Virus record (IMG/VR): IMGVR_UViG_3300009545_000020
Location: 1-64,000 of that record
Source: a virus
Length of the DNA stretch: 64,000 bases
Strand: one strand, 5' to 3'
Of the stretch, positions 2,386-43,048 are shown piece after piece. The position numbers were made by a program, and so were the translations under genes. Positions within the stretch are counted from its first letter, which is position 1, and each line of letters starts with the position of its first letter. The notes beneath the pieces were generated by a model, which did no database searches, was not told where the DNA came from, and worked only from the letters and a program-made list of their open reading frames with translations.

Positions 2386-2524
2386 AAGTCCTTGATTTTA
2401 TTCACTTCTTCCAATCTTCCATTCCAAAATAAATCCTCCTTAGGAAACACTAGAGACTAGTGATACATCCTAAAAATATTTTCCCCTATAGGATTTGGAG
2501 CGAATGGAATGGAAGGGATACATC
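2386..2524 (+). repeat. Inverted repeat, copy A (flanks late block)
   Basis: This stretch matches the reverse complement of 42905-43048. The first ~55 bases (2386-2441) agree with about four mismatches, including TTGATTTTATTCACTTCTT and AATCTTCCATTCCAAAA. Beyond that, shared islands remain: TCCTCCT..AGGA, GATACATC, CCTATAG and GGAATGGAA. The copy lies in the convergent gap at the 3' end of the minus-strand late unit. Role unknown: origin, recombination site or regulatory element are all possible. Confidence 0.82.
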
Positions 2525-2536
2525 TCGATGTATCCC
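2515..2536. other. Perfect hairpin at the end of the late unit
   Basis: GGGATACAT-CTCG-ATGTATCCC gives a 9-bp stem with a 4-nt loop (up to 10 bp if the loop is tightened), ending six bases before the stop codon of the giant late gene. No U-run follows on either strand, so it may protect mRNA 3' ends or bind a protein rather than terminate by itself. Confidence 0.6.
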
Positions 2537-2541
2537 AAAGC

Positions 2542-5500
2542 TCACTCAGCGAAGTTCGGATCAGCTTGGCCATGACCGACAGATTCGGCGTACAAAGCGT
2601 TCGCCGGCATGGCATGAAGCGCGAAGTTCGAGAACTGCTTGTGGCCTCCGATCGCTTCGACCGCATCGCCCAGTTGTTCGAGCGACGGGCCAGCGAGTGC
2701 ACCGATGCCAATGCCGCCACGATGTACGTCGTTGATCACGTCCGCGCCGAACTGACCAACGCCGAGCAGGCCGCCGCGCTGGATGCCCGACCACAGGTAA
2801 TCCTCCGGCCCCCAGTCCTGTTTCCATTGGGGCTGTGAGCCACCGCCCTGTAGCGCGCCCTTCAGCGCATCCGCCGCGATCATCACGGGCACGTAGCTCA
2901 GCAGCGCGTAGGCCGGCGTGTAGTTCCCATTGCGCATTTCATGGGCAACCCTGGCTAGCATCGTGTGATGGAACGAGTACACGAACTGCTTCAGGTGCGA
3001 CACGAGCGCGAAGTGCGGGTCGTTCATCCAGACGGGCTTGTCAGCAGCGTCCGGGCGCAGGATTGCGCCATCGACCCACTTATTCACTGCGGCGCGCATC
3101 TGCAGCGCATGCTCGGCGGTGAGGCCGTCGGCCTCGGTCAACGCCACGCGACCGTCACGCATCGTCACGTCCGAGGCCTTCAGGCCCAGTTCGGAGAGGT
3201 ATCGAGCTGAGTGCTCGTTCGGCGCAGTCACGTGGCGCTGCAGGAAGTTCAGTGCGGCTTCGGTCGCCCCCACCCGCATCGACGTGTTGAACTGCTCCAT
3301 CAGGTTCAGACGGAAGAACGTGTCGTTGATCTTCCGACCGGTGTCGCTGACCATGCCCTGGGAATACATCGCGCCGAGGCTGTGCACGAGCGATGCGTTG
3401 TCGATCACGCCCATTGTCTCGGCGAGCCGCGTCGAAGCATCCTTGGCGTCGCTGCCTTTGAGCCCCTTCGGGATCTCCGCGATGCCGCGCTTGAACGTCT
3501 TCCACGCGTCGCCGACCGTACCGCCGCGCACGATGATCCCGAGCGGGTCGACCGCGGAGCTGAAGATCGCGAGCGGTAGGAGGCGCACGTTCTGGTAGAC
3601 GATCATGTTGCCCATCAGCCGGCGGGCCGTCGGGTTCAGGTCATCGCCCAGTGTGCCGTCGACACCCTGCATGTACTTCTCGGCCGCGGTGATCTGGTCG
3701 GCGGTCGCGCCTTCTTTCACCGCCTGACCGTACAGCGCCTTCAGCCGCGAGCCATCGTCACCGAAGCGTCGTGCCCACTCAGCGCGGCGCCCGGCCTGCG
3801 TGATGTAGCTGTTCATCGTTTGGAACAGATCCTTCTGAACGAACCGAGCGATCTCGTCGTCGGGGATGTTCTTCAGCACCCGTTCCTTCAGGTTCTGCAT
3901 GCCGGGCCGCGACGTGACGCGGAATTCATTGCCCTCAGCGCCGACGATCGCATGCATCACGCCCACGGGGTTCGCCACGCCGTGCTTCTCCAGCAGCGTT
4001 TGGAACTCCGTCTGGTGGCGCGAGATGTAGTCAGGGTCGTAGACGCGCGGGAAGTAATCCTTGCCGACGCCGAGATCCTTGACGTTCACGCCGGCCTCGG
4101 TCATGTATTTGAACTGATCATCGAGGACTTTCCGAACGATGCGCGCGACGGTCTTGCCTTCGGTTGAAGCTGCGGGCTGCTTGGTCTGCAGTGCTTCGAG
4201 CCCTTCGTGAATCTGGTCCTTGGTGTACCCGTGGAGCGCTTCGCCCAGGCCGTTCATCGTCGCCGTGCGGTGCTCGCGGGCCGCCGGCAAGAAGCCTTGG
4301 TCCTGGCCCTCGCCCGTCGTCGTGCGCTTCACCAGGTCCGCGAGCTGCGACAGCGCCGGCACACCCGTGTCCCGTAGCCGCGCCTGGCCAGCGCCGAACA
4401 CCGAGTCGCCGATCTTGGTGACCGGCTCGGCCATCTTCTTCAGCGCCTCGAACGCCTTGTTCTTCCCTGGCTCGTTGAGCGCGCGCGTAACCGCGTTGAC
4501 ATCGTGCGAGCCCTTCGCGAACTCGCCCTCGTTGAAGTAGCGAAGGATATGGAGAGCCCTTTCATCGTTGCTCCAGATCCCGAGCGCCGAGCGGATGCCC
4601 GAGGCGATGCGCTTGAACAAACCTTGCACGCCGTCGCCAAGGCTGAGCTTCTTCGCCGCCCAGAACTGATACATGTACGCCGCACGCTCTTCGGGGTTCG
4701 TGAGCTGGCGCAGCGCCTCAGGTTCGTTCGCCAGCAGCTTCCTCAGTTGGTTCATCACCGCTGGCGACTCGGCCGCCTTCACGAGGGTTCGGGTGGTTTC
4801 ATGATTCCCCATGTCGCGCAGCTGGGCGAAGAACCCGTGCAGGCTCTCGTGATAGGCAACCGACGTTGGATCGAGCGCGTGCACGCTCAGCCTGATCACG
4901 TCGTGCGTGGCAGTGCGCACGAAGTCACCCGCGTTGAGCATCTTCGCGAATCGAACTTGGACCTTCGGGCCGAGCACGGTCTCGATGTGCTTGGCGATGT
5001 CGGTTTGCGTCGCGGTAGACGCACTCGCGCTCTTGTCCGTATGCTCCAGGCTGTACTTCTTGGTCTGCAGCCCATAGGCAGTGTCGGGGTTCTGCACCAG
5101 TTCCCCGAGCCGTTTATTTATCGCGTCGACAGTTTTCGCGATTCGCGAATCGCGAATATCTTCCTTACTCAGTGCCTCGGCCGCACGCTGAAGACCCTTG
5201 GCGTCATCACTCGACGCCAAGGTCTTGATCAGTTCAGGGTCACCAGAGCGGGCTTTCTCCAGGAACGCCGCCTGCTTGGCGGCCCTGACTTTTGGGCTGG
5301 GGGGTTCTCCGCTCGCTTTGATCTTGATCGGCGTTCGAACCTGCTCCGCACCAACAGGGTCGGCGTAGTGCCGGTTGAACGTGTTCGTGAACGCGCGGCC
5401 GAACTGCTGCAGCATGCTCTCGACGGCACGTTGCTGCTTGTCGGTCATGCGGTCGCGCATCTCCATGTACGCATCGCCGAGCGCGACGGCTTCGTCGGCG

Positions 5501-8500
5501 TGGCTCTGCACCGCGGCCTGGTCGGTGTTGTCCTGCAGCTCGATGAACCGGCGCGATTCATCGAGCGAGCGGTCGACGAGATCTCGCGCGCGGATGAACA
5601 GGTCCTGCGGGTTCTTCACCGGGGGCGGAGGTTCGGGGGCCTTGGGGGCTTCGGGCTCGACGGGCGTGATCCTCTGCTTTGCTTCGCGTGCTGCAACGGC
5701 CTCAGCCACCTTCTTTGCGTCAGCTTGCACGCCGTACTTCTCGGCGAGCTTGTTGATCACCGCGGCGCGTTCGCTGGGCTTCTTCAGCGCGACGATGGTT
5801 TGCAACCGCATCGCGTCTTCCTTGGACAGCTTGGCATCGAGGAGCTGCTTGGCCTTGTCCGCAATGACCCGTTGCGCAGCGACGTGGCTCGCGGCCATCT
5901 CATCGACCACGCCCTTCAGTGCCTCAGCGTTCGTGCGGGTCACCGGCAAGTTCTTGTTGCTGCCGTCGAGGTTCGTGGTTGCTTCGAGATCCTTGGGCGC
6001 GAGCTGGCTCGCCGCTTCATGGATCTGCGCGTCCTTGCTCGGCGACGTACCGGGCTCCTCGGATGCGTGTTCCGCAGTCTGTTCCTTGGCGATGCGCTCG
6101 GCCTTGGCATCGACGATCTTCTTCGCGGACTTGGCAATCTCCTGGCGGTCTTCAGGACCCGCAGCCTTGTATGCCTTCCGCGACTCGACGAGAGCGTTCG
6201 TGTCCGCATCGTCGAGCTTGTCCGTCCCCGTGCGCACGTCGAGCTTCTTCGCCTTCCCGAACGTCAGGTCTTCATCGCCGATGCGCGCGATCACCATCGA
6301 GTCGGGGATCTTCAGCTCGACGCCCTTCTCGGTTTGCAGCGCGGCGATGCCTTCCATGAACGCGCGAGCCGCACGCACCGGATAGCTCGGGCCTTGGTCG
6401 GTGCCTTTCAGCATCGCCTTCGTGATGCGCTTCGCGTCGAACGCCTCGCCGCCAATGTCGATCCGGCCGGGGCTGTTCGCGTACTTCTTCGTGTCGAGTT
6501 TCATCGCTCGAAGCTGTTCGCTGCTGAGCTTCGTCGGGTCCGCCTGCTTCTCGATCGCCACGACGCCATACTTCGACGGTTCGCCGTTGGTCATGGAGTT
6601 CAGATCGTCGCGGCCGATGCCCGTTTGTTCGGCGTACTCACGCGCGGACATGAACCGCACGTTCTTGTCGGGGTGTTCAGCTTGGGCTTTTTTGATGAGG
6701 CGTTCGGCTTGGGATTCATTGTTGAACTGCGAACGATGTGCTTCCGGCGACGGCATGAGACCGCTGTACTTGGTCTCGATGTTCTCCGGGGTCAGCATCT
6801 GTTCGGGCGTGTCGTGGAACCCGCCCGAGTCGTCCGGACCGCCCTTGCCCTTCGCCTCCGCACCCATCGGGTCACGTTGCCGCGCAACTTCCTTCTCCAG
6901 CGCCGCACGGACACCGTCCGCCTTGTCGCCGAAGTGTTGTTTCAGGAACCCCTCGACTTCGCTGTTGTGGAACGCAGCTTGTGCTGGCGTCATGCCTTGC
7001 GTGGTGTCGCCGCGCGCCCATTTGATGAGCCCTTGCGTCAGGCCGGGGACATCTTTCGCGAGCAGGGTGTTTTGACTTTCATCCGTGAGGCTCTTCCCGA
7101 TCAGGTCGTTGATCGAGCCGGCGGTCTTCGAATGCTCGTTGATTTCATTCAACGCGCGGAAGTACCGCTCGGTTGCGACCGGGTCTTCGTTGCCGATGAC
7201 GCTATGCAGCTTGCCTAGCACGGACTGCGTGTCCTGACCGAACACACGGCCGAGGTTCGTTTTGATGCTGTCCGGCAGCGCACCCGTGCGGTTGCTCGAT
7301 GCGTACTGGATGAACATGCGCAACGAGTCGGCGAGTTGATTGACCGAAGCTGCGCTTCGGAGAATCTCCGGGTTCGCTTGCTGCAAGTACGGAACGATCT
7401 CGTCGGTGATGGCTTGACGGATGCCGCTGAAGTCGTTGGAGGCCTTCGCGTCGTCGGTGGCCGCCGGCTTGATCTTCTCGGCCAGGCTGTCGTAAAGATT
7501 CTTTACGTGGCCGATCGCTTGCTCGCCGAGGTCTTGGGCTTTCTTCGCGGCGGCGACGGTCTGTTGGCTGGCCTGGTCGCCGAGGTTCGCCATGGCGTCG
7601 CTGACTTGCTGTCGACGCTCCGGGTCGAGCCCGGCCTTGCCGAGCAGCTCCTCGCCCCAGGCCTTGGCCTTCTGGGCGGCTTGGCTGTCGGAGAGATCCA
7701 TCAGCTCCCTCAGCCGGCCGCCCTGCGCCGTGGAGAACTCGTTCAGGTCACCGAGCGGCACGCCTTCGGCCACGCGATCGACGGAGTCATCCGCCGCGGC
7801 CTTGCCCTTGGCGATCAGGTCGGGGATCGTCGTGTCCGGTGCCGGGCCGGTGACCAGAGCCTTCGCCTTGTCGGTCGCCGAGCCCACGGCGTCGCGCGCC
7901 GTGCCCAGCGCATCGCCCACGGATGCACCAATCTGGGCCTTCTTCCCGGTCAAGCCGCCTGCAGCGCCGAAGCCCGCACCAAGCACCCCACCCCCTACCG
8001 CGGCGTCAATCGCCTGCTGTGGGTCGATTCCGGTGCCCGCGCCGAGCTGTTTCGCCACTTCGCCCCCTGCCCCGAGCGCGGCTTGCTCGCCCGCGCCCTT
8101 GACGATGCCGCCCACCACGCTCGAACCAAGGTGCCCGCCGGCCGCCAGGCCGGGCACGACGTTCTGCAGCGCGGCCGAGCCCACGCCGGCCAAGCCGGCA
8201 GTGCGCAGGCTCGGGGTCTGCCCGGCGGCATCCTGTCGCTGCAGCACATCCCCGGTCTCCAGCGGCGCCTGCAGCGCGGTGCCGGCCAGCATCGTCGGGA
8301 TCGCCCGGCCACGTGTCAGGGCCGCAGCGCCGAGCGCGAGGCCCGCCTGCGGCGCAGCCTGGCCCGCGAGCCCGGCCACGTAGTCTCCCGCGTCGCGCAG
8401 GCTGTGCACGTCGCGGTAGGAGCCCACGCGCGGGGCTTCCGTGGCGGCCTCAGCCGCGAGATCCCTGCTGCGCTGCAGCATCTCGGGAGAGTCGAGCGCC

Positions 8501-8640
8501 GCCGCGCCAAGCGCGTTGAGCTGGCCCTTCGCGCTGGTCAGCCCGGAGCGCAGTCCCTTCGAGAACTCGCTGGGGGTGTTGAAGTCGTCCTCGGGGACGC
8601 TGCCGCCCAGCTCCTTCACCGCATCGATCAGCGCGCCCAT
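2542..8640 (-). CDS. Giant polyvalent internal-virion protein, LPD38-like C terminus
   Basis: A 2032-residue protein, last gene of the late unit, overlapping the previous gene by ATGA. Residues ~60-260 are Gly/Ala-rich and hydrophobic, like membrane-interacting parts of ejected podovirus proteins. Long helical, Lys/Glu-rich stretches follow. Near residue 1260 is AYHESLHGFF, an HExxH-like motif (HESLH). The last ~170 residues (SFHHTMLARVAHEMRNGNY onward, with QPQWKQDWGPEDYLWSGIQ) match my memory of the LPD38 domain of large polyvalent proteins that are injected with phage DNA. Likely packaged in the head or tail and delivered into the cell. Domain naming rests on recall, not on a search. Confidence 0.78.
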   Translation of the reverse strand: MGALIDAVKELGGSVPEDDFNTPSEFSKGLRSGLTSAKGQLNALGAAALDSPEMLQRSRDLAAEAATEAPRVGSYRDVHSLRDAGDYVAGLAGQAAPQAGLALGAAALTRGRAIPTMLAGTALQAPLETGDVLQRQDAAGQTPSLRTAGLAGVGSAALQNVVPGLAAGGHLGSSVVGGIVKGAGEQAALGAGGEVAKQLGAGTGIDPQQAIDAAVGGGVLGAGFGAAGGLTGKKAQIGASVGDALGTARDAVGSATDKAKALVTGPAPDTTIPDLIAKGKAAADDSVDRVAEGVPLGDLNEFSTAQGGRLRELMDLSDSQAAQKAKAWGEELLGKAGLDPERRQQVSDAMANLGDQASQQTVAAAKKAQDLGEQAIGHVKNLYDSLAEKIKPAATDDAKASNDFSGIRQAITDEIVPYLQQANPEILRSAASVNQLADSLRMFIQYASSNRTGALPDSIKTNLGRVFGQDTQSVLGKLHSVIGNEDPVATERYFRALNEINEHSKTAGSINDLIGKSLTDESQNTLLAKDVPGLTQGLIKWARGDTTQGMTPAQAAFHNSEVEGFLKQHFGDKADGVRAALEKEVARQRDPMGAEAKGKGGPDDSGGFHDTPEQMLTPENIETKYSGLMPSPEAHRSQFNNESQAERLIKKAQAEHPDKNVRFMSAREYAEQTGIGRDDLNSMTNGEPSKYGVVAIEKQADPTKLSSEQLRAMKLDTKKYANSPGRIDIGGEAFDAKRITKAMLKGTDQGPSYPVRAARAFMEGIAALQTEKGVELKIPDSMVIARIGDEDLTFGKAKKLDVRTGTDKLDDADTNALVESRKAYKAAGPEDRQEIAKSAKKIVDAKAERIAKEQTAEHASEEPGTSPSKDAQIHEAASQLAPKDLEATTNLDGSNKNLPVTRTNAEALKGVVDEMAASHVAAQRVIADKAKQLLDAKLSKEDAMRLQTIVALKKPSERAAVINKLAEKYGVQADAKKVAEAVAAREAKQRITPVEPEAPKAPEPPPPVKNPQDLFIRARDLVDRSLDESRRFIELQDNTDQAAVQSHADEAVALGDAYMEMRDRMTDKQQRAVESMLQQFGRAFTNTFNRHYADPVGAEQVRTPIKIKASGEPPSPKVRAAKQAAFLEKARSGDPELIKTLASSDDAKGLQRAAEALSKEDIRDSRIAKTVDAINKRLGELVQNPDTAYGLQTKKYSLEHTDKSASASTATQTDIAKHIETVLGPKVQVRFAKMLNAGDFVRTATHDVIRLSVHALDPTSVAYHESLHGFFAQLRDMGNHETTRTLVKAAESPAVMNQLRKLLANEPEALRQLTNPEERAAYMYQFWAAKKLSLGDGVQGLFKRIASGIRSALGIWSNDERALHILRYFNEGEFAKGSHDVNAVTRALNEPGKNKAFEALKKMAEPVTKIGDSVFGAGQARLRDTGVPALSQLADLVKRTTTGEGQDQGFLPAAREHRTATMNGLGEALHGYTKDQIHEGLEALQTKQPAASTEGKTVARIVRKVLDDQFKYMTEAGVNVKDLGVGKDYFPRVYDPDYISRHQTEFQTLLEKHGVANPVGVMHAIVGAEGNEFRVTSRPGMQNLKERVLKNIPDDEIARFVQKDLFQTMNSYITQAGRRAEWARRFGDDGSRLKALYGQAVKEGATADQITAAEKYMQGVDGTLGDDLNPTARRLMGNMIVYQNVRLLPLAIFSSAVDPLGIIVRGGTVGDAWKTFKRGIAEIPKGLKGSDAKDASTRLAETMGVIDNASLVHSLGAMYSQGMVSDTGRKINDTFFRLNLMEQFNTSMRVGATEAALNFLQRHVTAPNEHSARYLSELGLKASDVTMRDGRVALTEADGLTAEHALQMRAAVNKWVDGAILRPDAADKPVWMNDPHFALVSHLKQFVYSFHHTMLARVAHEMRNGNYTPAYALLSYVPVMIAADALKGALQGGGSQPQWKQDWGPEDYLWSGIQRGGLLGVGQFGADVINDVHRGGIGIGALAGPSLEQLGDAVEAIGGHKQFSNFALHAMPANALYAESVGHGQADPNFAE

Positions 8641-10577
8641 CAGCGAGCGCTCCGCAGGCTACGGCGCTCGGCCGGCGTCGGCCCGAGATCCGCGGTCGGA
8701 GTCTTGAACGCATCCGGCAGGAACGCGTTCGCCGGTTCGGTGTAGCGGAGGTCGTTGGCGCCGATCGACTGGCCGCCCGCCATGCGGAGCCGGTTCTGCA
8801 CCAGCGTGCCCGGATCGTTGCCGGTGATGGCGTAGTCGAACAGGTCGTTGCTCACCGGGCCGCCAGCCGAGAACGGCCCGATGCCACGCGTCTGCGCGTG
8901 CCGCTGCTGCCGATCGAACAGCGTCTTCATGTAGGCAAGGTCATCGGGTTCGAGGCCGGCGAGGCCACGGTCCCTCAGCTTCTGTGCGCCGGCCGTGTTG
9001 CCCGAGGCTTCGAGGCGCTGGATGAGGCCGCCGAGCGTTTGCTGCGCGGCCGTGGTGAACTGGCCCACCTTGGCCTTGTCCGACACCACGTTCCCCTTGT
9101 CGTCCGTGGTCGTGAACATCGTGCCGAGCTTGTCGCCCAGCGCTTTGTCCGCGCTCTCGCGCGCGGTGCGGTTCTGCTCGGCGACCTGGGTGCCGTACTT
9201 TTGGACGTCGAGCTGGTAGGCCCGGTCCTTGTTGAACTGGTCGATCCGCGCAGCGTTGCGCGCGGTGGCAGCGGTCATGTCCTGGCCGCGCAACGTCACG
9301 TCCTGGCCACGAGCGGTGAGCTGCGCGTTCTGGTTGCCGAGGTACCGCTCGGTCCGATCGCGGGCCATCGCTCGCGTGCTCTCGCCTGCTTCACGCAGTC
9401 GCGCGGTCTGCACGCCGGCATTGGCGTTCTGACGCTGCGCTTCCGCGCCAAGGATTGCATTCGCCTGCTCGGCGCCGCGGCGCGGGTTCATGCGGATCGC
9501 CTGGTCGGCGAGGTAGTTCGCGCGGTCGCGTTGGTACTGGTCCTCGTTGCGCGCGGTGACAAGCGGGCCGCTGCCGCCGAGATCCGCCGCACCGCCGCCC
9601 GTGGCACCAGGGCCAAACGGGTCTTGACCAGCGGGCGCAGGGGAAGCGCTCGGCGTGAAGCCCGGCACCGTCGTCACGCCTGCACGCAGCCCGGCCGGTC
9701 CGTTCTGGCCACCGCTCGGCGAGCCGTCGGAGTAGCTGAAGCCGGGGGTAATGTTCGAGCCTGAGAACGAGCTGCCCGAGCGAAGGATCTGGTTCTCGGG
9801 CGGTGCCGTCGGCAGCTGCGGGCCGATGCTCGGGTCCGCGGTCTGTGCCCCCGGCGTCGCGGCGTTCGCCACGCCCGTCGGCAGCGAGGCGTTGGGCAGC
9901 GACGGCAGCGAGGCAGGCGCAGCGCCCGAGATCTGCGCACCGCGCAACGTGTTCGCCGCCACGTCGGCGCCTTGAATGCCGCGCAGCGCCGCGCCACCAG
10001 CTCGCAGCGTCGCCCCGAGCGCGCCGGCCGGGAGACCCAGCGTAGCGTTCAGGGTGTTCGAGATGTTCCGCGTCACCTCGTTGTCGCCGCCGAAGCCGAG
10101 CGGCTGGGGCTCGGGCTGCGCAGGCGGCGCTTCGTAGCCGGGAGCCTGACCGGGGATCACGCCGGCACCAGTCGTGGGGTCCGGAGCACGGCCCGGCTGC
10201 GGCGTGGTGTCTCCACGCAGCGCCGTCGCCCCGAGGTAGCCGATGGCACCAGGCAATGCGCCCTTCACCGCCGCGGTGCCGGCGCTGCGCAAGTTCTGCG
10301 CGAGCGCCGCGCGCACGGAGGTAGGAGCTGCGGGCGGCGTCGTGATGTTCGGTTGGATGCCGGGAGCGGGCGGCCCTTGGAAGCCAGGGGCGCCGGGCGC
10401 CGAGTTCGCCTGACGGAACGCCGTGGCTTCCGGCGATGCACCCTGCCGCAAGCTCTGCACCGGGGGCGGCTGGCGCAGTTCGGTTGCATCCCCGACGGGG
10501 ATGTGCGGGATCTCCATGGCATCGCCGACGGGGATCGAGTCATACGCCTCACCGACAGGGATTCGAAGGCTCGCCAT
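8640..10577 (-). CDS. Internal virion-type protein, Pro/Gly-rich N terminus and coiled coil
   Basis: A 645-residue protein directly upstream of the giant gene and overlapping it by ATGA. The first ~35 residues hold three IPVG-(E/D)-A repeats. Residues ~40-340 are low-complexity Pro/Gly/Ala. Residues ~340-500 are charged and helical (RDRANYLADQAIRMNPR onward), suited to a coiled coil. Placement before the giant polyvalent protein matches ejection or internal proteins of podoviruses. No named family recognised. Confidence 0.65.
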   Translation of the reverse strand: MASLRIPVGEAYDSIPVGDAMEIPHIPVGDATELRQPPPVQSLRQGASPEATAFRQANSAPGAPGFQGPPAPGIQPNITTPPAAPTSVRAALAQNLRSAGTAAVKGALPGAIGYLGATALRGDTTPQPGRAPDPTTGAGVIPGQAPGYEAPPAQPEPQPLGFGGDNEVTRNISNTLNATLGLPAGALGATLRAGGAALRGIQGADVAANTLRGAQISGAAPASLPSLPNASLPTGVANAATPGAQTADPSIGPQLPTAPPENQILRSGSSFSGSNITPGFSYSDGSPSGGQNGPAGLRAGVTTVPGFTPSASPAPAGQDPFGPGATGGGAADLGGSGPLVTARNEDQYQRDRANYLADQAIRMNPRRGAEQANAILGAEAQRQNANAGVQTARLREAGESTRAMARDRTERYLGNQNAQLTARGQDVTLRGQDMTAATARNAARIDQFNKDRAYQLDVQKYGTQVAEQNRTARESADKALGDKLGTMFTTTDDKGNVVSDKAKVGQFTTAAQQTLGGLIQRLEASGNTAGAQKLRDRGLAGLEPDDLAYMKTLFDRQQRHAQTRGIGPFSAGGPVSNDLFDYAITGNDPGTLVQNRLRMAGGQSIGANDLRYTEPANAFLPDAFKTPTADLGPTPAERRSLRSAR

Positions 10578-10590
10578 GATCTTTGCTCCG

Positions 10591-10616
10591 TCTAAGTTAG
10601 ATGTGAGAGTTTAGAG
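10591..10616 (-). promoter_or_regulatory. TCTAA/TTAGA site before internal-virion gene
   Basis: The 33-nt gap between the genes contains the perfect inverted repeat TCTAAGTTAGA (10591-10601) and a second TTAGAG (10611-10616) that overlaps the stop codon of the preceding gene. The same arrangement recurs before many genes in this window. Confidence 0.55.
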
Positions 10617-16024: not shown

Positions 16025-16027
16025 GTC

Positions 16028-16471: not shown

Positions 16472-16480
16472 GCTATGTGC

Positions 16481-23820: not shown

Positions 23821-23834
23821 CTTAGACGTTAGAG
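23821..23834 (-). promoter_or_regulatory. TCTAA-type intergenic site
   Basis: Minus strand CTCTAACGTCTAAG, overlapping the stop codon of the adaptor gene and followed by AAGTAAGGAAG before the fibre gene at 23799. The same CTCTAACGTCTAA core occurs on the plus strand at 55157-55169. Confidence 0.5.
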
Positions 23835-28794: not shown

Positions 28795-28845
28795 GGGGGC
28801 TGTTCCTTGCAAGGGGGAAGCGGGGACCATCATCGTATCCCCGTT

Positions 28846-28872: not shown

Positions 28873-28883
28873 TTCAACGTGTT

Positions 28884-30422: not shown

Positions 30423-30431
30423 GGCTGTTCC

Positions 30432-35839: not shown

Positions 35840-35843
35840 GACT

Positions 35844-36176
35844 TCAGTTCTTCGGACCGACTGCGTCCATCTGCTCGTCGACAGCGAGGACCGCCTGGCC
35901 GGAGAGAAGCGGCGCAACGTTCTGGGCACCGAGCCACGTGCGCGGACCAGGGAACGGGTAGCTGTCCTCGATGCGATTCGGACGATCGGGCTTCGGGTCG
36001 CGGTTGATCTGGTCGAAGATCGAGGGCTGCTGGCGGATCGGCGGGGGGACCAGCGCCGCCGTCCCTACCTTGTCGATCTCGGCGACGATGCGGTCCCAGA
36101 CGATGGGCGGCGGTGCCTCGGGCGCGAACGAATCACGGATGCCCTTGAGCCAGGTGACGAAGTCGTGGGGGGTCAT
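35844..36176 (-). CDS. Hypothetical 110-residue protein
   Basis: A Pro-rich, possibly disordered protein (DKVGTAALVPPPIRQQPSIF) located between portal and the 104-residue gene. Its start overlaps the previous stop (ATGA). Genes at this place can encode terminase- or portal-associated accessory factors, but nothing specific is recognised. Confidence 0.6.
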   Translation of the reverse strand: MTPHDFVTWLKGIRDSFAPEAPPPIVWDRIVAEIDKVGTAALVPPPIRQQPSIFDQINRDPKPDRPNRIEDSYPFPGPRTWLGAQNVAPLLSGQAVLAVDEQMDAVGPKN

Positions 36177-36487
36177 TTCGCCTCCCTGATGTGCCGCGCA
36201 ATCAAGCGATTGGCAGGGGAATGAAGGAAACGGAGCCGCACAACACTCGGGTCGCTCTCGGTTCGAACCCCGAAGCGCGCAGTGAGCGCGCCTTCGCGGA
36301 AGGAAAATCCGACCCCTGTGATCGAGAGGAACCCGACCAGCAGCGGTGCGTACCAGGCCGGCAGCTCGGTGAAGTCCCCGCGCGCGAGCTGGTGCTCTCG
36401 CTCGGCGCGCGTCGAGAACTGTTCTCGCGCGAGGAAGAAGGCGCCACGCGGGCGGCGAAGACGAAAGGCGTGATACGCAGTTGCCAT
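36173..36487 (-). CDS. Hypothetical 104-residue protein
   Basis: Basic N terminus (MATAYHAFRLRRPRG) and a short hydrophobic stretch near residues 44-60 (YAPLLVGFLSITGVGF), perhaps one membrane-proximal segment. Lies directly after the large terminase. Coupled to the next gene by ATGA. Function unknown. Confidence 0.58.
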   Translation of the reverse strand: MATAYHAFRLRRPRGAFFLAREQFSTRAEREHQLARGDFTELPAWYAPLLVGFLSITGVGFSFREGALTARFGVRTESDPSVVRLRFLHSPANRLIARHIREAK

Positions 36488-36488
36488 G

Positions 36489-38009
36489 TCAGGCCGCCAT
36501 GTGAGAGACGCCGTGCGTCACGCCGGCCTGGAGCCGGTCCTTCCAGGACTTCATGCCCTGGGGCTTCGGGGGGACGGGGGCGGCTGACTCGACCACCATC
36601 TGGGTCACCCAGGCAAGGGAGTCGACGCAGTCATCGTGCACACCAGCGGGGAAACGCAACATCTCATTCCTCACGGTCTCGTACCACTCAGCACCCTCAG
36701 CGAACGACACCATGCCCTGCTGCATTCGGCCCTGGAGCGCTCGACCACGGGTCAATTTGTCGGTTAGCGGTTTGAGCAACGTGATGGACGGATACAGCTT
36801 CCTCTCACGTTCTCTCATGGTCTTCGTAAATAGAGCTTCGAGGCTGCGCCAAATTTGACCGTCCTCGAAGCCCAATCTTAGAGCCGGACTGTACCACTTC
36901 TCGCAGAGAGACAATATGGCGTCTACGATGAAGAAGGCGTTTCCGCTCTTGAATCTAACGACTTCTACGACGTGCATTAGATCGTTTTCGTCCTGCAGGG
37001 CCACGGTACCAACGGTGTAGTCGTTGGTTTTCTTCTCGGATATCGCAAAGTCCCACGCGATAAACACGTTGCAGCGCTTGTAGTGCGGCGGCGGCCCGCG
37101 CCGGAACTGTTCCTTCAGGAAATACCCGCCGTCGTCAGGGACAGGGTTTTGTTGGTACAGCGCGGACCACCACCGGCCGCCCTTGTGCTGCGCCTTGATC
37201 CGCAGCAGCTTGTTCAGGTCGTAGCGCGCGGGGTGCAGGGCCTCGCCTTTGCTGCGAAGAAGACGAAGGTCCGCCAGGTCGTGGGCGGAGGTATCGACGA
37301 TGATCTGGTGCGTGAGGGGGTCTACGTACTCATCCTGCTCCGCGATCGCCGGGTACTTCACGACCTCGAACTGGTCGATGTGCTCCCGGTCTGGATCATC
37401 CGCGTCGACCTTCATCATCTGCTGCAGGCGGCCGGCGAGATCGTCGTCGTGCCACCAGGTCTGGATGACGAGGACACCGCCGCCAGGTGCGAGCCGCGAA
37501 TACGCGGTGGAGAGGTACCACTGCCAGATCTTTTCGCGCGCATCGGCGCTGTCGGCTTCCTCAGCGTTCTTTACCGGGTCGTCGATGACCAGGATGTGCG
37601 CGCCCTTGCCCGTGATCGGGCCGCCGATGCCGGCCGGGAGGTACGCACCGCGCGAGCCCGACAACGCCCACGAGCTGGCCGATCGGTTGTTCGGGTCGAG
37701 CTTCGTGCCGAAAACGCTCTGGTATGCCTCGTCGTCGATGATTCCCTGAACTTTCCGCGAGAAGTCGAGGGCCAGGTCAAGGTTGTACGAGCACGAGATG
37801 AATTCGTGATCGGGATTGCGGCCGAGGTGCCAGGCGGGGAAGTTTTTGGAGGCGAGTTCGCTCTTTCCATGCCGCGGAGGCATGAGGAGCATGAGCCGCG
37901 GGCTTTTTCCGTCGACAACGTCTTGAGAGAAGCGTTCGAGGCGCTCGCAGATGTCTCGATGCACCCAGCCGTCGAGATACCGCGGGTTGAGGCGCTTCAC
38001 GAACGGCAT
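36489..38009 (-). CDS. terL: Terminase large subunit
   Basis: Contains the DNA-packaging ATPase motifs: Walker A-like MPPRHGKSE (~residue 40 from this start), Walker B HILVIDDP (~145), a coupling TWWHDDD (~195), then the nuclease domain with FIAWDFAISEKKTNDYTVG (~310) and FEDGQIW (~370). The start is uncertain: homologous-looking helix (SDPKLAAVQKELAERVLARR) extends upstream of the ATG at 38009, and a TTG at 38111 could include it. The frame is open much further (to 38501) but that part is Ser/Thr-rich and is a shadow of the gene at 38071-38517. Confidence 0.85.
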   Translation of the reverse strand: MPFVKRLNPRYLDGWVHRDICERLERFSQDVVDGKSPRLMLLMPPRHGKSELASKNFPAWHLGRNPDHEFISCSYNLDLALDFSRKVQGIIDDEAYQSVFGTKLDPNNRSASSWALSGSRGAYLPAGIGGPITGKGAHILVIDDPVKNAEEADSADAREKIWQWYLSTAYSRLAPGGGVLVIQTWWHDDDLAGRLQQMMKVDADDPDREHIDQFEVVKYPAIAEQDEYVDPLTHQIIVDTSAHDLADLRLLRSKGEALHPARYDLNKLLRIKAQHKGGRWWSALYQQNPVPDDGGYFLKEQFRRGPPPHYKRCNVFIAWDFAISEKKTNDYTVGTVALQDENDLMHVVEVVRFKSGNAFFIVDAILSLCEKWYSPALRLGFEDGQIWRSLEALFTKTMRERERKLYPSITLLKPLTDKLTRGRALQGRMQQGMVSFAEGAEWYETVRNEMLRFPAGVHDDCVDSLAWVTQMVVESAAPVPPKPQGMKSWKDRLQAGVTHGVSHMAA

Positions 38010-38070
38010 CAGACGACGCCGCGCGAGAACGCGCTCAGCTAGTTCCTTCTGAACTGCGGCGAGCTTAGGG

Positions 38071-38517
38071 TCAGAAGGGGCATTCGACGCCGTCGAGCTT
38101 GCGTGAGGCAACGGCGCCGGCGCGCTGAGAGGTGTCGATGTCGGGGACGGTGAGCCAGTCGCGCTCGGTGTACGTGCCGGTTGCTTTGAAGTCTTCGAGG
38201 GCTCGGACTTTCCACTCGCGCTCGGCTTTGCTGTCCCAGAGGTCGGGCTCGATTTCCTCGGGGGCTTTGGCTTTGCGCCAGTCGATGTAGAGGTCGACTT
38301 CGCTTTCTTTGTAGCCTTGGCGACGCGTGAGGAGGACGCGGCGGTTTGGGATGTTGTCGATCGGGATGCCGAGGATGCGGTCTGCGATCGAGGCGTATTC
38401 GAGCTTGTCGCTGGCGACGAAGGGGCGTTCGAACGGCGTGTCGACTTGGATGACGATGTTGATTTCGTCGTCGGCAGGAACTCGTTCGCAGGCTTCTTCA
38501 CGAGATGCGGATGTCAT
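38071..38517 (-). CDS. WEYAS-family protein with long C-terminal extension
   Basis: A 148-residue protein carrying FERPFVASDKLEYASIADRI near residue 29, matching the KPF-(I/V)-A-x-DGWEYAS-(I/L)-x-D-R core of four other late genes here. It adds ~95 charged residues (ESEVDLYIDWRKAKAPEEIE). Placed between terminase genes; it overlaps the upstream paralogue by 20 nt. Function unknown; a packaging-related or small regulatory role is conceivable. Confidence 0.68.
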   Translation of the reverse strand: MTSASREEACERVPADDEINIVIQVDTPFERPFVASDKLEYASIADRILGIPIDNIPNRRVLLTRRQGYKESEVDLYIDWRKAKAPEEIEPDLWDSKAEREWKVRALEDFKATGTYTERDWLTVPDIDTSQRAGAVASRKLDGVECPF

Positions 38518-38812
38518 TGACGAAGATCCGAGTCGCTCGGAACCCAGGCATGATGAAAACCGCGTCGTTGAAGTTGTGGCTCAGGAGCGAGCCGTGCTCC
38601 TTGTTCCAGTTGTGTTCGCTCGGCCACTTCTTCCGCCCGATCATGAGATCGCCGAGGTTCGCGTACTCCCATCCATCAGGTCCGATGCGCGCCGTGAAGG
38701 CGGCCAGCTGCTCACGAGCCTGCTTCCCGTACGCCGGGCCGAGCTTCTTCGCCAGGTTCCGCTGCTGGGCTTCGAGCGAAGCAGCGCGGCCGAAGCGGTC
38801 AGCCTTCCGCAT
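38498..38812 (-). CDS. WEYAS-family protein, diverged
   Basis: A 104-residue protein with a helical basic N terminus and the core GPDGWEYANLGDLMIGRK near residues 44-60, followed by SEHNWNKEHGSLL, where the HN motif recurs in the paralogues (SQHNALRE, SAHNRAKV, SDHNHHRE). Overlaps the terminase small-subunit gene by 14 nt. Function unknown. Confidence 0.67.
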   Translation of the reverse strand: MRKADRFGRAASLEAQQRNLAKKLGPAYGKQAREQLAAFTARIGPDGWEYANLGDLMIGRKKWPSEHNWNKEHGSLLSHNFNDAVFIMPGFRATRIFVNDIRIS

Positions 38813-39425
38813 CGCCGTCTCCGTCGCCGAGCACTTCTTCCACGAGTTCGGGGCTCTTCGAGATGCCGTCGGTGATCAGCTTCAGCAACTCGGCGTCGCT
38901 GAGCTTGTTCATGCGCTCCATCACGAGGTTGCCTGTGAGGTTGATGTCGAGGGTCTTCTTGATCGGCTCGTAGTAGCCGCACATGCGGCCGATCTCGCGC
39001 CAGCCGCTGATCATCGAAGCAGGCTCGGCCATGAGCTTCGCCATCTCGATTCCTTCGAGCAGGCCATCCATGACCCGCTTCCGGGTCATCTGGCTGGCTT
39101 CCTCATAGAGCTTCTTTTCCTTCTCGTACAGCGCAATCACCTGGGGCAGATGCACGATGCGGTACGCGTAGGAGGCGCCGTCGCCGTAGCCGGCGCGCGC
39201 CGAGGCGTTCGGGATGGACTCGCCCTGAGCCCAGAACTTCACGAACAGCTTCGCCTTGTCGGTCAGCGGCTTGTTCGGGTCGGCACGTTCGGCGAGTTCA
39301 GCGACAGGGACTGCGCTGAGGTTGAGGTACTTCGCACGAGCGTTGAGAGCCGAGCCCTTGCGGTCGACGGCGCTGGCACCGCGCTTCTTGGCGTACCCGC
39401 TGCCCTTGCCTTCGCGCGCGGTCAC
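38799..39425 (-). CDS. terS: Terminase small subunit
   Basis: Start set at GTG 39425: it overlaps the stop of the upstream WEYAS gene and has GAGGAG 5 nt upstream. The 208 residues include LTDKAKLFVKFWAQGESIPN then ASARAGYGDGASYAYRI, a helix-turn-helix pattern typical of phage terminase small subunits that bind pac DNA. The C terminus is acidic (EEVLGDGDGDAEG). Fits with the large terminase a few genes downstream. Confidence 0.8.
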   Translation of the reverse strand: MTAREGKGSGYAKKRGASAVDRKGSALNARAKYLNLSAVPVAELAERADPNKPLTDKAKLFVKFWAQGESIPNASARAGYGDGASYAYRIVHLPQVIALYEKEKKLYEEASQMTRKRVMDGLLEGIEMAKLMAEPASMISGWREIGRMCGYYEPIKKTLDINLTGNLVMERMNKLSDAELLKLITDGISKSPELVEEVLGDGDGDAEG

Positions 39426-39637
39426 AGGTACTCCTCGGGGTCGCGATGACCATGCTCGGTGACGTGGTAGGAGGGAAACGCTTTCCAGTTCTTCAACAGG
39501 TTCGAGGCTTCGCGCAGCGCGTTGTGCTGGCTGAAGAGGTAGCCGATCCGCTCGCCGAGCATGAAGTCGCCGATCGAGGCGTATTCCCACCCGTCCACGG
39601 CGACGAAGGGTTTGGAGATGTCGACGGCGGAGGTCAT
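39422..39637 (-). CDS. WEYAS-family small protein
   Basis: A 71-residue protein: MTSAVDISKPFVAVDGWEYA then SIGDFMLGERIGYLFSQHNA. First half is nearly the same as the next upstream paralogue, also at DNA level, so duplication is recent. Coupled on both sides (ATGA upstream, GTGA to terS). Function unknown. Confidence 0.72.
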   Translation of the reverse strand: MTSAVDISKPFVAVDGWEYASIGDFMLGERIGYLFSQHNALREASNLLKNWKAFPSYHVTEHGHRDPEEYL

Positions 39638-39858
39638 ACGGCGGCGCCCTTCTTCAGGGTATTGAAGTACGACGGGCGCTTCGCGGCGATGAACAAGGCA
39701 TCCGACCAGATGGATTCCACGGGGGCGCGTACCTTGGCTCGGTTATGCGCGCTCAGAAGCGGCGATATCGGCCTGTCAAGGACTCGATCGGCCAGCGACG
39801 CGTACTCCCAACCGTCGGAGGCAATGAAGGGTTTGGTGACGTCGACGGCGGGGGTCAT
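39634..39858 (-). CDS. WEYAS-family small protein
   Basis: A 74-residue protein: MTPAVDVTKPFIASDGWEYA then SLADRVLDRPISPLLSAHNR. The shared core and HN motif align with the other members; the C-terminal half is different (IWSDALFIAAKRPSYFN). ATGA overlaps with both neighbours. Function unknown. Confidence 0.72.
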   Translation of the reverse strand: MTPAVDVTKPFIASDGWEYASLADRVLDRPISPLLSAHNRAKVRAPVESIWSDALFIAAKRPSYFNTLKKGAAV

Positions 39859-40229
39859 TGGCGGCCGTACTGCTTCACAGCGGCTTCGACGGCGCCGTAC
39901 TTCGCCACGAGACGCTCGACGAGACCGGGGACCGGTTCGAGGATGTCGAAGGCATCGTGCCGGCGGAGGAACTTGGCCAGCAGCTCTCGATGATGGTTGT
40001 GATCGGAATCCATTCGGTTCCCGAGCAAGCGATCCGCGATCGAGGCGTACTCCCAGCCGTCGGAGGCAATGAAGGGCTTGGAGGCCAGCATCTTTCCGAC
40101 CACCTCATCGGTGTCCTTCTTCTGCTCTTCGAGCATGTCCGTCAGCTCGTCTACCACGTCATTCAGCTCGACGTAGATAGGGCCGAAGGGCGCGGGCGGC
40201 ACCGGTTCGAGGGGGAGGGGCTCGGTCAT
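39855..40229 (-). CDS. WEYAS-family protein, first gene of the late unit
   Basis: A 124-residue protein with an added acidic, helical N-terminal domain (~residues 20-48, DVVDELTDMLEEQKKDTDE) before SKPFIASDGWEYASIADRLL and SDHNHHREL. It is the promoter-proximal late gene, right behind the divergent control region. Function unknown; being first in the terminase operon, a regulatory or packaging-accessory role is possible. Confidence 0.7.
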   Translation of the reverse strand: MTEPLPLEPVPPAPFGPIYVELNDVVDELTDMLEEQKKDTDEVVGKMLASKPFIASDGWEYASIADRLLGNRMDSDHNHHRELLAKFLRRHDAFDILEPVPGLVERLVAKYGAVEAAVKQYGRQ

Positions 40230-40467
40230 GTGGCTCTAAGCTCTAAGTTAGACGAGATTCTCGTCTAAAAAATTTTTCAGAGCAAGGCCTTAGAGAAAGG
40301 GGTGGGGGTACCGGGGATTTTTCCTGGGTACGGAGGATGAAAAACTTCGTGCTGGGGGCTCAGAAACGGGGGTGTGAGGCTCCCCTCCCCGTCCCTCGTT
40401 CGACGCCCCCCACTTCGGATTCGTGATCCCACGGGCTCAAAAAGGAGTCTCTTCGAGTGGGGGCCAC
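40230..40467. promoter_or_regulatory. Divergent control region between late and small-membrane units
   Basis: No gene in ~240 nt. Next to the late start lie TCTAA half-sites at 40235-40239 and the inverted repeat TCTAAGTTAGA (40242-40252), then a perfect 10-bp inverted repeat (arms TTAGACGAGA and TCTCGTCTAA, 40248-40268) and AAAAAATTTTT. GCCCCCCACT (40405-40414) and AGTGGGGGC (40456-40464) can pair. This looks like an operator-promoter region. Exact promoters were not identified. Confidence 0.6.
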
Positions 40468-40493
40468 GCAGACGACAAAAACACGTCGTCTGC
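40468..40493 (+). ncRNA. Twin stem-loop leader, copy 1
   Basis: GCAGACGAC-loop-GTCGTCTGC is a perfect 9-bp stem with an 8-nt loop (AAAAACAC). About 20 nt later comes TTAACTCATTG and a GAGGT ribosome site, then the 53-residue gene. A second copy with compensatory base changes precedes the next gene, so RNA folding appears to be selected. Possible attenuator, regulatory leader or protein-binding site. Confidence 0.68.
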
Positions 40494-40536
40494 TTCGATC
40501 TTCGAGCTATGTCATTAACTCATTGAGGTCTACATC

Positions 40537-40698
40537 ATGCTCTCACTCCTCAAGGCTCTTGGCCTCGTAGCTATCGCTGTGCCGTTGATTCTCTTTGGCG
40601 TTGATCAACACTTCGTCGGCGCCGACCAGAGTGGTTGGTACATCGTTGCTGGTGCGTTGGTATTCGTACGCGCAGTCTTCGTTGCTGCGAGTGAATAA
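40537..40698 (+). CDS. Small membrane protein, 53 residues
   Basis: Starts MLSLLKALGLVAIAVPLILF and contains two hydrophobic segments (~2-21 and ~34-50). The start follows GAGGT after the first stem-loop leader. It is one of four small genes here, three of them membrane proteins, reading away from the late unit. Function unknown. Confidence 0.66.
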   Translation: MLSLLKALGLVAIAVPLILFGVDQHFVGADQSGWYIVAGALVFVRAVFVAASE

Positions 40699-40712
40699 CG
40701 TGCTACTCAGTC

Positions 40713-40738
40713 GCAGACAACACAAACACGTTGTCTGC
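40713..40738 (+). ncRNA. Twin stem-loop leader, copy 2
   Basis: GCAGACAAC-loop-GTTGTCTGC, a 9-bp stem with an 8-nt loop (ACAAACAC). Compared with copy 1 one pair changes from G-C to A-T on both arms, keeping the stem perfect. The spacer then repeats TCGATCT, TTAACTCATTG and AGTC before ATCATG, as in copy 1. Confidence 0.68.
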
Positions 40739-40777
40739 ATCGATCTACATCCTTGTCCTTAACTCATTGGAGTCATC

Positions 40778-41185
40778 ATGCCCAAAGTTCGCCCAATCAA
40801 TGCAGCCATGTCGGAAGATCAACACAACTCCGACTCCGCAACTCATTCCGCCATTGAAACCATCGTCTCGGGTTTCAAGTTCCAGATTGCCAGCTTCATC
40901 GCGAATCTCTTCGTCGCTGGCACTCTTTGCTACGTTGGCATGAACGTCGTCACGTGGCTCATCGTTGGTGCAACGATGTTGACGGGTTCGGCGTTCCTCG
41001 CGTTCATGATCGCGTTCATCGGTTATGCGATCGTCTTCATCGGCAGCATGGCTGTTGGCAGCTACGTTGCGAAGTACATCGCACAAGGAACTGCGCTCGA
41101 CGACATGAAGGCGGTGAAAGATGTCTGCGTAGCGAAGCTCGTTGATGTTCGCGCGTGGTTCGATGCACGTGTTGCCAACTTCTAG
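40778..41185 (+). CDS. Membrane protein, 135 residues
   Basis: Begins MPKVRPINAAMSEDQHN (a second Met at residue 11 is possible). Two to three hydrophobic segments: ~residues 35-58, 60-78 and 80-101, then a charged end with a predicted helix. The GGAGT site and the second stem-loop leader precede it. No family recognised; may alter the host envelope. Confidence 0.65.
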   Translation: MPKVRPINAAMSEDQHNSDSATHSAIETIVSGFKFQIASFIANLFVAGTLCYVGMNVVTWLIVGATMLTGSAFLAFMIAFIGYAIVFIGSMAVGSYVAKYIAQGTALDDMKAVKDVCVAKLVDVRAWFDARVANF

Positions 41186-41197
41186 GAGTTAACGATC

Positions 41198-41482
41198 ATG
41201 ATTGAAATGGCGTTGCTCGTAGCAGCGGGTCTCATTGTTATTTGGTGGCGACTCTCGTGGAAGTGGAAGCTGAGAATGTTGTCCCATCCGACTGCAATCG
41301 ATGTATTTGTATTCATCGGATTGACTGCGCTCCATTGGGGCACGTTCGCCGGCGTAATGGTCGCTGCGATCGCCGCGCTCGCAGTTTCCGTGAGCCTTTC
41401 ACTCGGTCGCTGGCTCTTCGGTTATTACTTGAAGGGCGAGTTCCATCAAGGCCGGATCAACATTCGGAGCAAGCTGCAATGA
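41198..41482 (+). CDS. Membrane protein, 94 residues
   Basis: Starts MIEMALLVAAGLIVIWWRLS with a first helix at residues 3-18 and two more around 36-50 and 53-72, then a charged C terminus (KGEFHQGRINIRSKLQ). The TGA overlaps the next start. Function unknown. Confidence 0.63.
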   Translation: MIEMALLVAAGLIVIWWRLSWKWKLRMLSHPTAIDVFVFIGLTALHWGTFAGVMVAAIAALAVSVSLSLGRWLFGYYLKGEFHQGRINIRSKLQ

Positions 41483-41661
41483 GCCTCATACCTTTCACCT
41501 TCCTCATCCTCATCTCCGATAACCACACACAACTAGCGAAGCTCTCAGGCACCGATCAACTGATCCGCTGGTTCGACGAGCACAGAGATTTCATCGAGAT
41601 CCATCGCAGCTACAAGGATCTCCCCGACGGCTCGACCATCTGCAAGGTGTTCGTGTCGTGA
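41479..41661 (+). CDS. Hypothetical 60-residue protein
   Basis: Start chosen at ATG 41479, overlapping the preceding stop. Sequence MSLIPFTFLILISDNHTQLA then a soluble part ending GSTICKVFVS. Mixed alpha/beta. The unit ends at the strong terminator that follows. Function unknown. Confidence 0.62.
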   Translation: MSLIPFTFLILISDNHTQLAKLSGTDQLIRWFDEHRDFIEIHRSYKDLPDGSTICKVFVS

Positions 41662-41716
41662 TCAACAAGGAGCTGAACATGCCGCCCTAGACCCTAACAA
41701 CTCCACTGCTCTTTTC

Positions 41717-41750
41717 AAGGGCCAACGTTTTTACAGCGTTGGCCCTTTTT
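41717..41750 (+). terminator. Strong Rho-independent terminator
   Basis: AAGGGCCAACG and CGTTGGCCCTT pair perfectly (11 bp) around a short loop; five T follow. It closes the small membrane-gene unit before the gene at 41781. Confidence 0.88.
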
Positions 41751-41780
41751 CTTTGCACCAACCAATGGAGATCACCGTGA

Positions 41781-42821
41781 ATGGAACTTAGCTACTCCCA
41801 ATGCTCTTCACTCGCGTTGCATGTCGAGTCCATACATGCAGATCGCAGCGATCCCATCGAACACATCGCTGCCCTCGAAGAACTGTTCGGCTCATCCATA
41901 TACGCACACCACATCATGAACCACACTGTCCAAACCAACGCCATCACCGAAGCCATGACCCAACTCCCCGCCGACGCCATCGCCAAGGTCGTGAACTCCT
42001 CGTACGTCTACTTCGACCTCCACGAGACGCTCAAATCGCTGCTGCCGCACGAACTGCTCTACGCCCGCGTTCTCAGCTCGCTCGCCTGGACGCTCGACAC
42101 CAACATCGTGAACAACGCGCGCGGTGTGGTCTACGATCTCTACAGCGAAGCGATGGCCACCGGCACGATCGACAGCTGGGCCGAGTTCATCAACGCGCTG
42201 AAGGAAATCGAAGCCTCCGAAGCCAACGCGGTGCTCAACGGCTTCGAGGAAACCGGCAACTTCAAGGTGCTGGTGGAACTCTTGAACCAGTCGAAGAGCT
42301 GGCACGATCAAGCCGAAGCCGCAGCCGATCGCGCCGAGATCAAGTACCGCAAGCGCTCGCTCGAAGAACTCCTGGCCAACGAGCAACCGCAGCGCGTCGA
42401 CACCTTCACGCGCGACAACCTGGCCACGATCGCAAAGCACGTTGCGAAAGGCGACACCAACCGCGAGCGCATCACCACCGAGATGCTCATTCGCCAGCGC
42501 ACCAACCAGGCCGCCTCGCAGCACGAGCAACGCCAGAAGCTGCAACCTGCCGTCTTGCGCGTCCTCCACGAGGCACAGCGCCGTTGCGACAACGCCGGCT
42601 ACGACAACGAAGACATCGCGTTCCACACGTTGCCGCTGGCCGTTCAGGTGCGCATGATCGAGGCCACCATCCGCATCATCGAGCGCACCCTCACCGATCT
42701 GTCCGGCTACCGCCAGATCACGCCGATCGCGTTCGCCGGCATCACGGCTGAAGGCTTCGATGCGATGGATCACTTGAAGCTCGTGCTCAAGGCTCCGAAG
42801 TACGCGAACGCCACGCGCTAA
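41781..42821 (+). CDS. Conserved-looking helical protein of unknown function
   Basis: A 346-residue, mainly alpha-helical, soluble protein with acidic N-terminal half and a charged, Glu/Arg/Gln-rich middle (residues ~170-260). The ATG follows GGAG. It stands alone between two terminators, so it has its own promoter in all likelihood. No signature motif seen; an abundant virion or host-interaction protein are both possible. Confidence 0.68.
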   Translation: MELSYSQCSSLALHVESIHADRSDPIEHIAALEELFGSSIYAHHIMNHTVQTNAITEAMTQLPADAIAKVVNSSYVYFDLHETLKSLLPHELLYARVLSSLAWTLDTNIVNNARGVVYDLYSEAMATGTIDSWAEFINALKEIEASEANAVLNGFEETGNFKVLVELLNQSKSWHDQAEAAADRAEIKYRKRSLEELLANEQPQRVDTFTRDNLATIAKHVAKGDTNRERITTEMLIRQRTNQAASQHEQRQKLQPAVLRVLHEAQRRCDNAGYDNEDIAFHTLPLAVQVRMIEATIRIIERTLTDLSGYRQITPIAFAGITAEGFDAMDHLKLVLKAPKYANATR

Positions 42822-42827
42822 GCATCT

Positions 42828-42858
42828 GAGATGTACGGGTTCACAGCCCGTACATCTC
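42828..42858. other. Long perfect hairpin after the 346-residue gene
   Basis: GAGATGTACGGG and CCCGTACATCTC form a 12-bp perfect stem with a 7-nt loop. GATGTAC resembles the GATACATC island of the nearby inverted repeat. It lies 10 nt ahead of a bidirectional terminator. Confidence 0.72.
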
Positions 42859-42867
42859 GCATTGATT

Positions 42868-42900
42868 AAAAATGAGGCACTCACGGACTGCCTCATTTTT
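42868..42900. terminator. Bidirectional Rho-independent terminator
   Basis: AAAAATGAGGCA and TGCCTCATTTTT pair over 12 bases with a 9-nt loop. The A-run and T-run on the two sides allow use in both directions, isolating the replication unit from the 41781 gene. Confidence 0.88.
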
Positions 42901-42904
42901 AGGC

Positions 42905-43048
42905 AATACATCCCATTCCTTCCAACCAAAACGCTTTTCCCTCTATAGGGACACTTTTTTGTAGAGATGTATCGACCCCTATAGCACCTCCTTAGGAGGA
43001 TATCTTTTGGAATGGAAGATTGTAAGAAGTGAATAAAATCAACGACTT
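42905..43048 (-). repeat. Inverted repeat, copy B (flanks late block)
   Basis: The reverse complement of this region aligns with 2386-2524. The end at 43048 is best conserved; GAGATGTATC (42964-42973) and CTATAG islands remain further in. It also contains CCTCCT-T-AGGAGG and CCCTCTATAGGG-like palindromes. It lies between a terminator and the start of the replication unit. Confidence 0.82.

Follow-up and report, generated by a model that had tools for sequence, protein, structure and literature searches.

Two distant, matching AT-rich sites in a KPP25-related prophage are probable replication sites for the phage's own initiator

The 64,000-nt stretch of viral DNA analyzed here (the window; positions 1 to 64,000 of IMG/VR record IMGVR_UViG_3300009545_000020) carries two matching, AT-rich sites, which we call L and R (Table 1). 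Pairs of this kind occupy conserved places in related phages, are built on words specific to each genome, vary in relative orientation, lack L in some relatives and co-vary with a phage protein. Judging from sequence comparison, L and R are probably two copies of a cis-acting replication site for an initiator that the phage itself supplies; the likeliest candidate is the primase-helicase whose gene adjoins R. Paired initiator-binding sites are the best supported of the explanations considered because of the AT-rich core, the genome-specific words, the neighboring primase-helicase gene, and the co-variation of L with the C-terminal domain of that protein.

Table 1. Coordinates of the L and R sites, their repeated words and cores, and the neighboring genes in the window
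Feature	Coordinates	Strand	Remarks
Early/host-side gene, 114 aa	1945..2289	+	Converges on L
L site	2362..2524	+	AT-rich, repeat-flanked; between convergent gene ends (early + ends 2289, late - ends 2542)
L iteron-like word TTGGAAG	2365..2371	+	
L iteron-like words TTGGAAG (2408-2414) and ATGGAAG (2416-2422)	2408..2422	-	Tandem, 8-bp spacing
L AT-rich core	2423..2505		Contains TCCTCCTTAGGA, GATACATC, CCTATAGG
L iteron-like word ATGGAAG	2509..2515	+	Beyond AT-rich core, facing pair at 2408-2422
Last late gene, 2032-aa virion structural protein, PHROG 30152	2542..8640	-	In most relatives, its 3' end marks where L lies
Bidirectional terminator-like hairpin AAAAATGAGGCA...TGCCTCATTTTT	42868..42900		Beside R, separate from R unit
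R site	42905..43072	-	Matches L in inverted orientation; 65 bp separate it from the 5' end of the primase-helicase gene
R iteron-like word TTGGAAG	42919..42925	-	
R AT-rich core	42926..43011		Contains CCTATAG, GATACATC, CCTCCTTAGGAGG
R iteron-like word ATGGAAG	43012..43018	+	
R iteron-like word TTGGAAG	43063..43069	-	One more at 43081-43087 (+)
Primase-helicase, 793 aa, PHROG 24712, DUF5906/SF3-type helicase, NrS-1 polymerase family	43138..45519	+	Candidate initiator
C-terminal domain of primase-helicase, residues 688-783	45199..45486	+	Predicted helix-helix-helix-beta-wing; candidate iteron-binding winged helix

The two sites in the window

The initial annotation had described a diverged inverted repeat at 2386-2524 and 42905-43048. 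The repeat is real: a gapped alignment of L and R spans ~160 bp with a local score of 111, compared to a maximum of 36 among 2,000 Markov-shuffled pairs. The outer part of the alignment, taken alone, also exceeds 2,000/2,000 shuffles. The coordinates first given were good to ~25 bp, the homology actually beginning at 2362 and stopping at 43072, and the shared islands then listed (TCCTCCT..AGGA, GATACATC, CCTATAG) all fall inside the gapped alignment. Of the inverted repeats that a repeat finder detected in the window, 2362-2445/42989-43072 was the longest (84 nt, 83% complementary). When positions 2380-2530 were searched against the whole 71,443-bp record, the only match besides the query was on the minus strand at 42989-43048 (92% over a 60-bp core, E = 7.5e-20), with no third copy of the unit anywhere in the record. 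The pair brackets the late block, as annotated; the ~40.5 kb in between consist of minus-strand late genes and a few plus-strand genes at 40778-42821.

Each single copy has words on both flanks of its AT-rich core, and these words are clustered far above background, the arrangement of an iteron-type site. In the window, L has the lowest GC content of any segment of the genome, or ties for it, and is recovered as the second-best segment by R's own hexamers. A CTATA/TATAG-type core word is present in 40 of 46 sites of the family, compared to 20.7 expected. The matched unit generally measures ~100-175 bp, with extremes of 55-77 bp in G017 and up to 198 bp for R of G029, and in the twin-site genomes its edges tend to coincide with the outermost repeated words. 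DnaA boxes were not enriched near the sites (2 found, 1.1 expected).

The early genes run rightward from R, and the late structural genes run leftward and end at 2542. Thus, R lies near the divergence of transcription and L exactly at its convergence. GC skew, which the annotation had proposed as a check of origin activity, gives no origin signature at L or R; because the strand bias follows the direction of transcription, the skew is uninformative as an origin test.

Occurrence and concerted change in related genomes

The comparison set comprised ~35 records of the same general gene order, KPP25 included; relatives were recovered by a terminase query and by an alignment query, and a single-sequence scan of viral contigs for primase relatives found none. 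An L/R-like pair is present at the same two places in 19 genomes (the window and 18 others, KPP25 among them). R is located upstream of the early genes; in most genomes the primase-helicase gene follows it directly, and in KPP25 and G029 it is not adjacent to that gene. L is located just 3' of, or at most ~2 kb from, the homologue of the window's 2032-aa late protein, with G029 again an exception. In nearly all twin-site genomes, no other 150-bp window has a GC content as low as these two sites, and a scan with R-enriched hexamers that ignored GC placed L as the second-best window, above the third, in 19/19. They lie ~25-40 kb apart on phage genomes of 60-72 kb, and the arc between them covers 0.37-0.50 of the circle. 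In KPP25, all 10 plus-strand copies of GTTACGA fall in two loci half a genome apart, at 26.4-26.8 and 58.26-58.54 kb. Every KPP25-type isolate matches the KPP25 L site, at 4-5 places per record; a distant blastn search of the window's L against isolate phages gave no match because the words differ between genera.

The words are specific to the genome rather than to the site. Among the 19 twin-site genomes, a genome's own L and own R align with a mean score of 109, compared to 27 for an L and another genome's R; across genomes, the mean is 38 for R with R and 36 for L with L. None of 20,000 permutations reached the observed own-pair sum, although, since the 19 pairs were first chosen by GC rank and pair score (the hexamer scan being an independent check), this test measures how genome specific the pairs are and not how many genomes have a pair. 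The word common to L and R is TGGAAG in G000, G002, and G003; GTGTAA in G014 and G017; CTTATA in G004, G005, G009, and G031; AGAACA in G016 and G042; CCTAGCAAC in G029; and GTTACGA in KPP25. In twin-site genomes, one set of iterons recurs at two separated cis-sites. In G014 and G031, L and R agree at 92-93% of positions over 162-169 bp, and the agreement extends to the stretches between the words. This identity outside the words goes beyond shared binding sites and indicates copying or conversion between L and R. In the single close trio compared, L changes faster than R.

In ~12 relatives, R is present and L is not detectable. These include G007, which has a terminal repeat of 123 bp and is placed beside the twin-site genomes G006 and G008, and also G011 and G012, which are placed beside the twin-site genomes G016 and G042. 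A few of the remaining ones are partial or distant, and in these R was located from the dip in GC content close to the primase gene. The annotation had held that relatives with one copy and no loss of function would speak against the pair, and this came true in part: L is not essential across the group because ~12 relatives show only R.

The candidate initiator and competing explanations

The primase-helicase gene beside R encodes an SF3-type helicase, and the protein is the putative initiator. Its profile matches the helicase of the NrS-1 polymerase (6k9c, E = 3.4e-48), and its structural model matches NrS-1 polymerase structures (Foldseek E = 4e-23), with further structural matches to poxvirus D5/E5 and to the SaPI primase-helicases (7pds, 7ola). 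The best relatives are AEP-type PrimPol helicases, the sequence match being confined to the helicase part. The C-terminal domain is a candidate winged helix from the predicted order of its secondary-structure elements; a Foldseek search with this domain alone returned no significant match. In the relatives, the G013 primase-helicase (L102:14646-17840) is 1065 aa long and has an internal Intein_splicing match just under the Pfam cutoff, similarly long primase matches occur in L232, L238, and L243, and the G005 gene (L115:770-3148) has one in-frame stop codon.

Similarity among L sites follows similarity of the C-terminal domain (rho 0.57; partial correlation 0.51 after removing TerL/portal/PolA/SNF2 relatedness), even though L lies ~25-40 kb from the gene. 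The domain is the best correlate of L, ahead of the other protein parts, TerL, portal, PolA, SNF2, AAA, and vWA, and ranks best in 396/500 bootstraps; when hexamers were used instead of alignment, the linker region was slightly ahead of it (0.49 versus 0.45). For R, four candidates (the SF3 helicase, PrimPol, the C-terminal domain, and p267) correlate about equally well, with p267 the runner-up, and linkage could contribute to the co-variation of R. The protein p267 (62245-63048), which also co-varies with the sites, could instead be the binder, going by these similarities.

We infer a mechanism in which the C-terminal domain of the initiator would bind the words (TGGAAG in the window) flanking the AT-rich TATAG core, the helicase ring would open the core, and the primase domain would start synthesis. 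R would be the main origin, as it is present in every relative examined and evolves slowly. L would be a second origin or a helper site resembling the crr of P4, nearly opposite on the circle at the early/late convergence, and might face either way or be lost. The two would be kept alike within a genome by copying or conversion together with selection for the same binding protein.

The division of labor between the sites could take either of two forms. Both may fire, as true twin origins, so that copying proceeds simultaneously from opposite points of the genome. We hold this version only tentatively: it is favored by the words on both sides of the AT-rich core in each copy alone and by the L-R arc, but L is missing in ~12 relatives and evolved faster than R in the one close trio, and the skew does not show two origins. 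Equally tentative is a version in which R alone serves as the origin and the same initiator uses L as a helper site, for copy control (handcuffing), or as a fork barrier. R is universal, slow-evolving, and usually beside the initiator gene, while L is dispensable, flips, and sits at the transcription convergence where forks from R would meet, and the P4 crr provides a precedent; L nevertheless retains the full anatomy, including the AT-rich TATAG core, which a mere binding array would not need. Somewhat doubtful is the broader proposition that 60-72-kb phages replicate from two near-opposite iteron origins that are repeatedly re-copied and change their words together with the initiator, the second being free to flip or disappear.

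The initial annotation had offered three ideas for the repeat, namely twin origins, inversion of the bracketed segment, and common regulatory sites. Whereas the first, widened to paired initiator-binding sites, is the best supported, inversion was rejected. That the repeats serve as inversion sites for the late block is suggested by the window, where they are inverted and bracket that block. Among the relatives, however, the pair is direct about as often as inverted (inverted in 8 genomes and direct in 10, with G003 unclear and some assignments, including G002, G013, G016, and G017, resting on weak scores), and L differs in orientation between sisters, G004 and G005 being inverted and G009 direct, though their R sites are nearly identical. 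The late block itself is never flipped, lying on the strand opposite the primase gene in 34/34 records. With the pair orientation mixed and the late block constant, inversion as the function of the repeats is scarcely credible, and the mirror-image arrangement of L and R is an accident of the window's genome.

Transcription offers a less remote explanation, under which L and R would be operators, a phage-specific promoter, or bidirectional terminators common to both operons. Both sites mark operon borders, the TATAG core is reminiscent of a promoter element, and terminator-like stems are nearby. A promoter at L would nevertheless have nothing to drive, since the genes on either side end facing it, and a scan of L for sigma-70 sites found none; the TATAG core is therefore not supported as a promoter. 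The hairpin terminator beside R is separate from the unit, and neither the changing words nor the absence of L in relatives fits a shared terminator, so we consider a role in transcription improbable. It is more improbable still that the sites are packaging (pac) sites for the small terminase. R does lie within ~4-7 kb of TerL in most relatives, but two pac sites so far apart would start packaging at two points, and the similarity of the sites, by alignment, is unrelated to that of TerL (partial correlation, -0.10 to 0.02). Paired sites for the initiator remain the preferred explanation.

Known systems and other features of the genome

Satellite phage P4 has two separated cis-sites, ori1 and crr, made of the same short repeats and served by one phage-encoded primase-helicase; crr is its second initiator-bound cis site. 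The window phage resembles P4 in having two same-repeat cis-sites and a single primase-helicase as candidate initiator; the predicted secondary-structure order at the C terminus of this protein would fit a winged helix like that of P4. The P4 genome, however, is only 11 kb long, with a few kb between its sites, whereas the KPP25-like pair is 25-40 kb apart on a 60-72-kb phage. Unlike those of P4, the sites change sequence between relatives and keep no fixed orientation, and some relatives lack the second one, so that a P4-type second site is not universally required in the KPP25-like group. In the P4 alpha protein, a winged helix binds the ori repeats, and the protein then unwinds and primes (PMC4234260, which also cites Ziegelin and Lanka 1995). 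Its primase domain is of the TOPRIM type (PMC4234260), in contrast to the apparently archaeo-eukaryotic domain of the window phage.

A likeness to the Rep/Pri initiators and origins of SaPIs (staphylococcal islands) is also seen, in the iterons round an AT-rich stretch and in a structurally related initiator helicase (7pds, 7ola). In SaPI origins, iterons flank an AT-rich stretch, and SaPIs are not known to have more than one origin; the window phage, unlike them, has a second matching unit across the genome. The helicase region at the C terminus of the polymerase of Nitratiruptor phage NrS-1 is the best structural and sequence match, although that phage is otherwise unrelated. The KPP25 group (Kochitakasuvirus) has a similar gene order and paired AT-rich iteron sites with L at the same place, but differs in its word (GTTACGA), its mainly direct orientation, and an R that is not adjacent to the primase gene; moreover, the KPP25 isolates are lytic and the window phage is a prophage.

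A search of open-licence papers for paired origins in KPP25-group phages found no description. Taken singly, the parts belong to familiar types; their pairing across a large phage genome, with genome-specific words and free orientation, is a variant for which that literature yielded no description. The site pairs and their co-varying candidate initiator form a natural origin-initiator series in which recognition has been switched many times, and the recognition code should therefore be readable and testable. For annotators, the pairs indicate where to look for origins in KPP25-like phages, for which none were found described. They are also a clear example of concerted evolution between non-coding sites that lie far apart, one of which is lost or flipped at times.

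The record has the look of an integrated prophage, and its phage is a relative of Pseudomonas phage KPP25. A tyrosine integrase gene is located near its right end (L004:12010-13038), and a ~42-bp near-identical stretch is present at both ends (window 77-120 and the last 120 bases), consistent with the attL/attR of an integrated prophage; this stretch, GGACTCGAACC...GTCAAGGTTCAAG, resembles a tRNA end. The nearest isolates by primase gene are KPP25-like Pseudomonas phages (39% identity), and related primase genes are present in contigs of Herminiimonas, Variovorax, and Uliginosibacterium and in MAGs.

Several other features of the window were recorded. A 186-aa open reading frame at 1331-1891 has a PEP-CTERM match and a sub-threshold Lcl_C match, odd cargo for a phage, and tandem small paralogous open reading frames with common repeats (families D1, D5, D9) lie at 59004-60825 and 649-1294. 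A MoxR-type AAA ATPase gene (46158-47156) and a vWA/metallopeptidase-like gene (50206-51330) form a pair kept in nearly all relatives. Finally, a TCTAAGCTCTAA-type motif has 16 matches at ≤2 mismatches, compared to 1.4 expected, including plus-strand copies at 40235, 46127, 47172, 52129, 53717, 55158, 61684, and 62206, minus-strand copies at 23822, 28858, and 32612, and a degenerate copy at 43100-43119. The motif often lies 10-50 nt ahead of a start codon on the coding strand, followed in several cases by TACGATCTA, and relatives have a similar word ahead of the primase gene; the motif is a candidate operator or 5'-UTR element.
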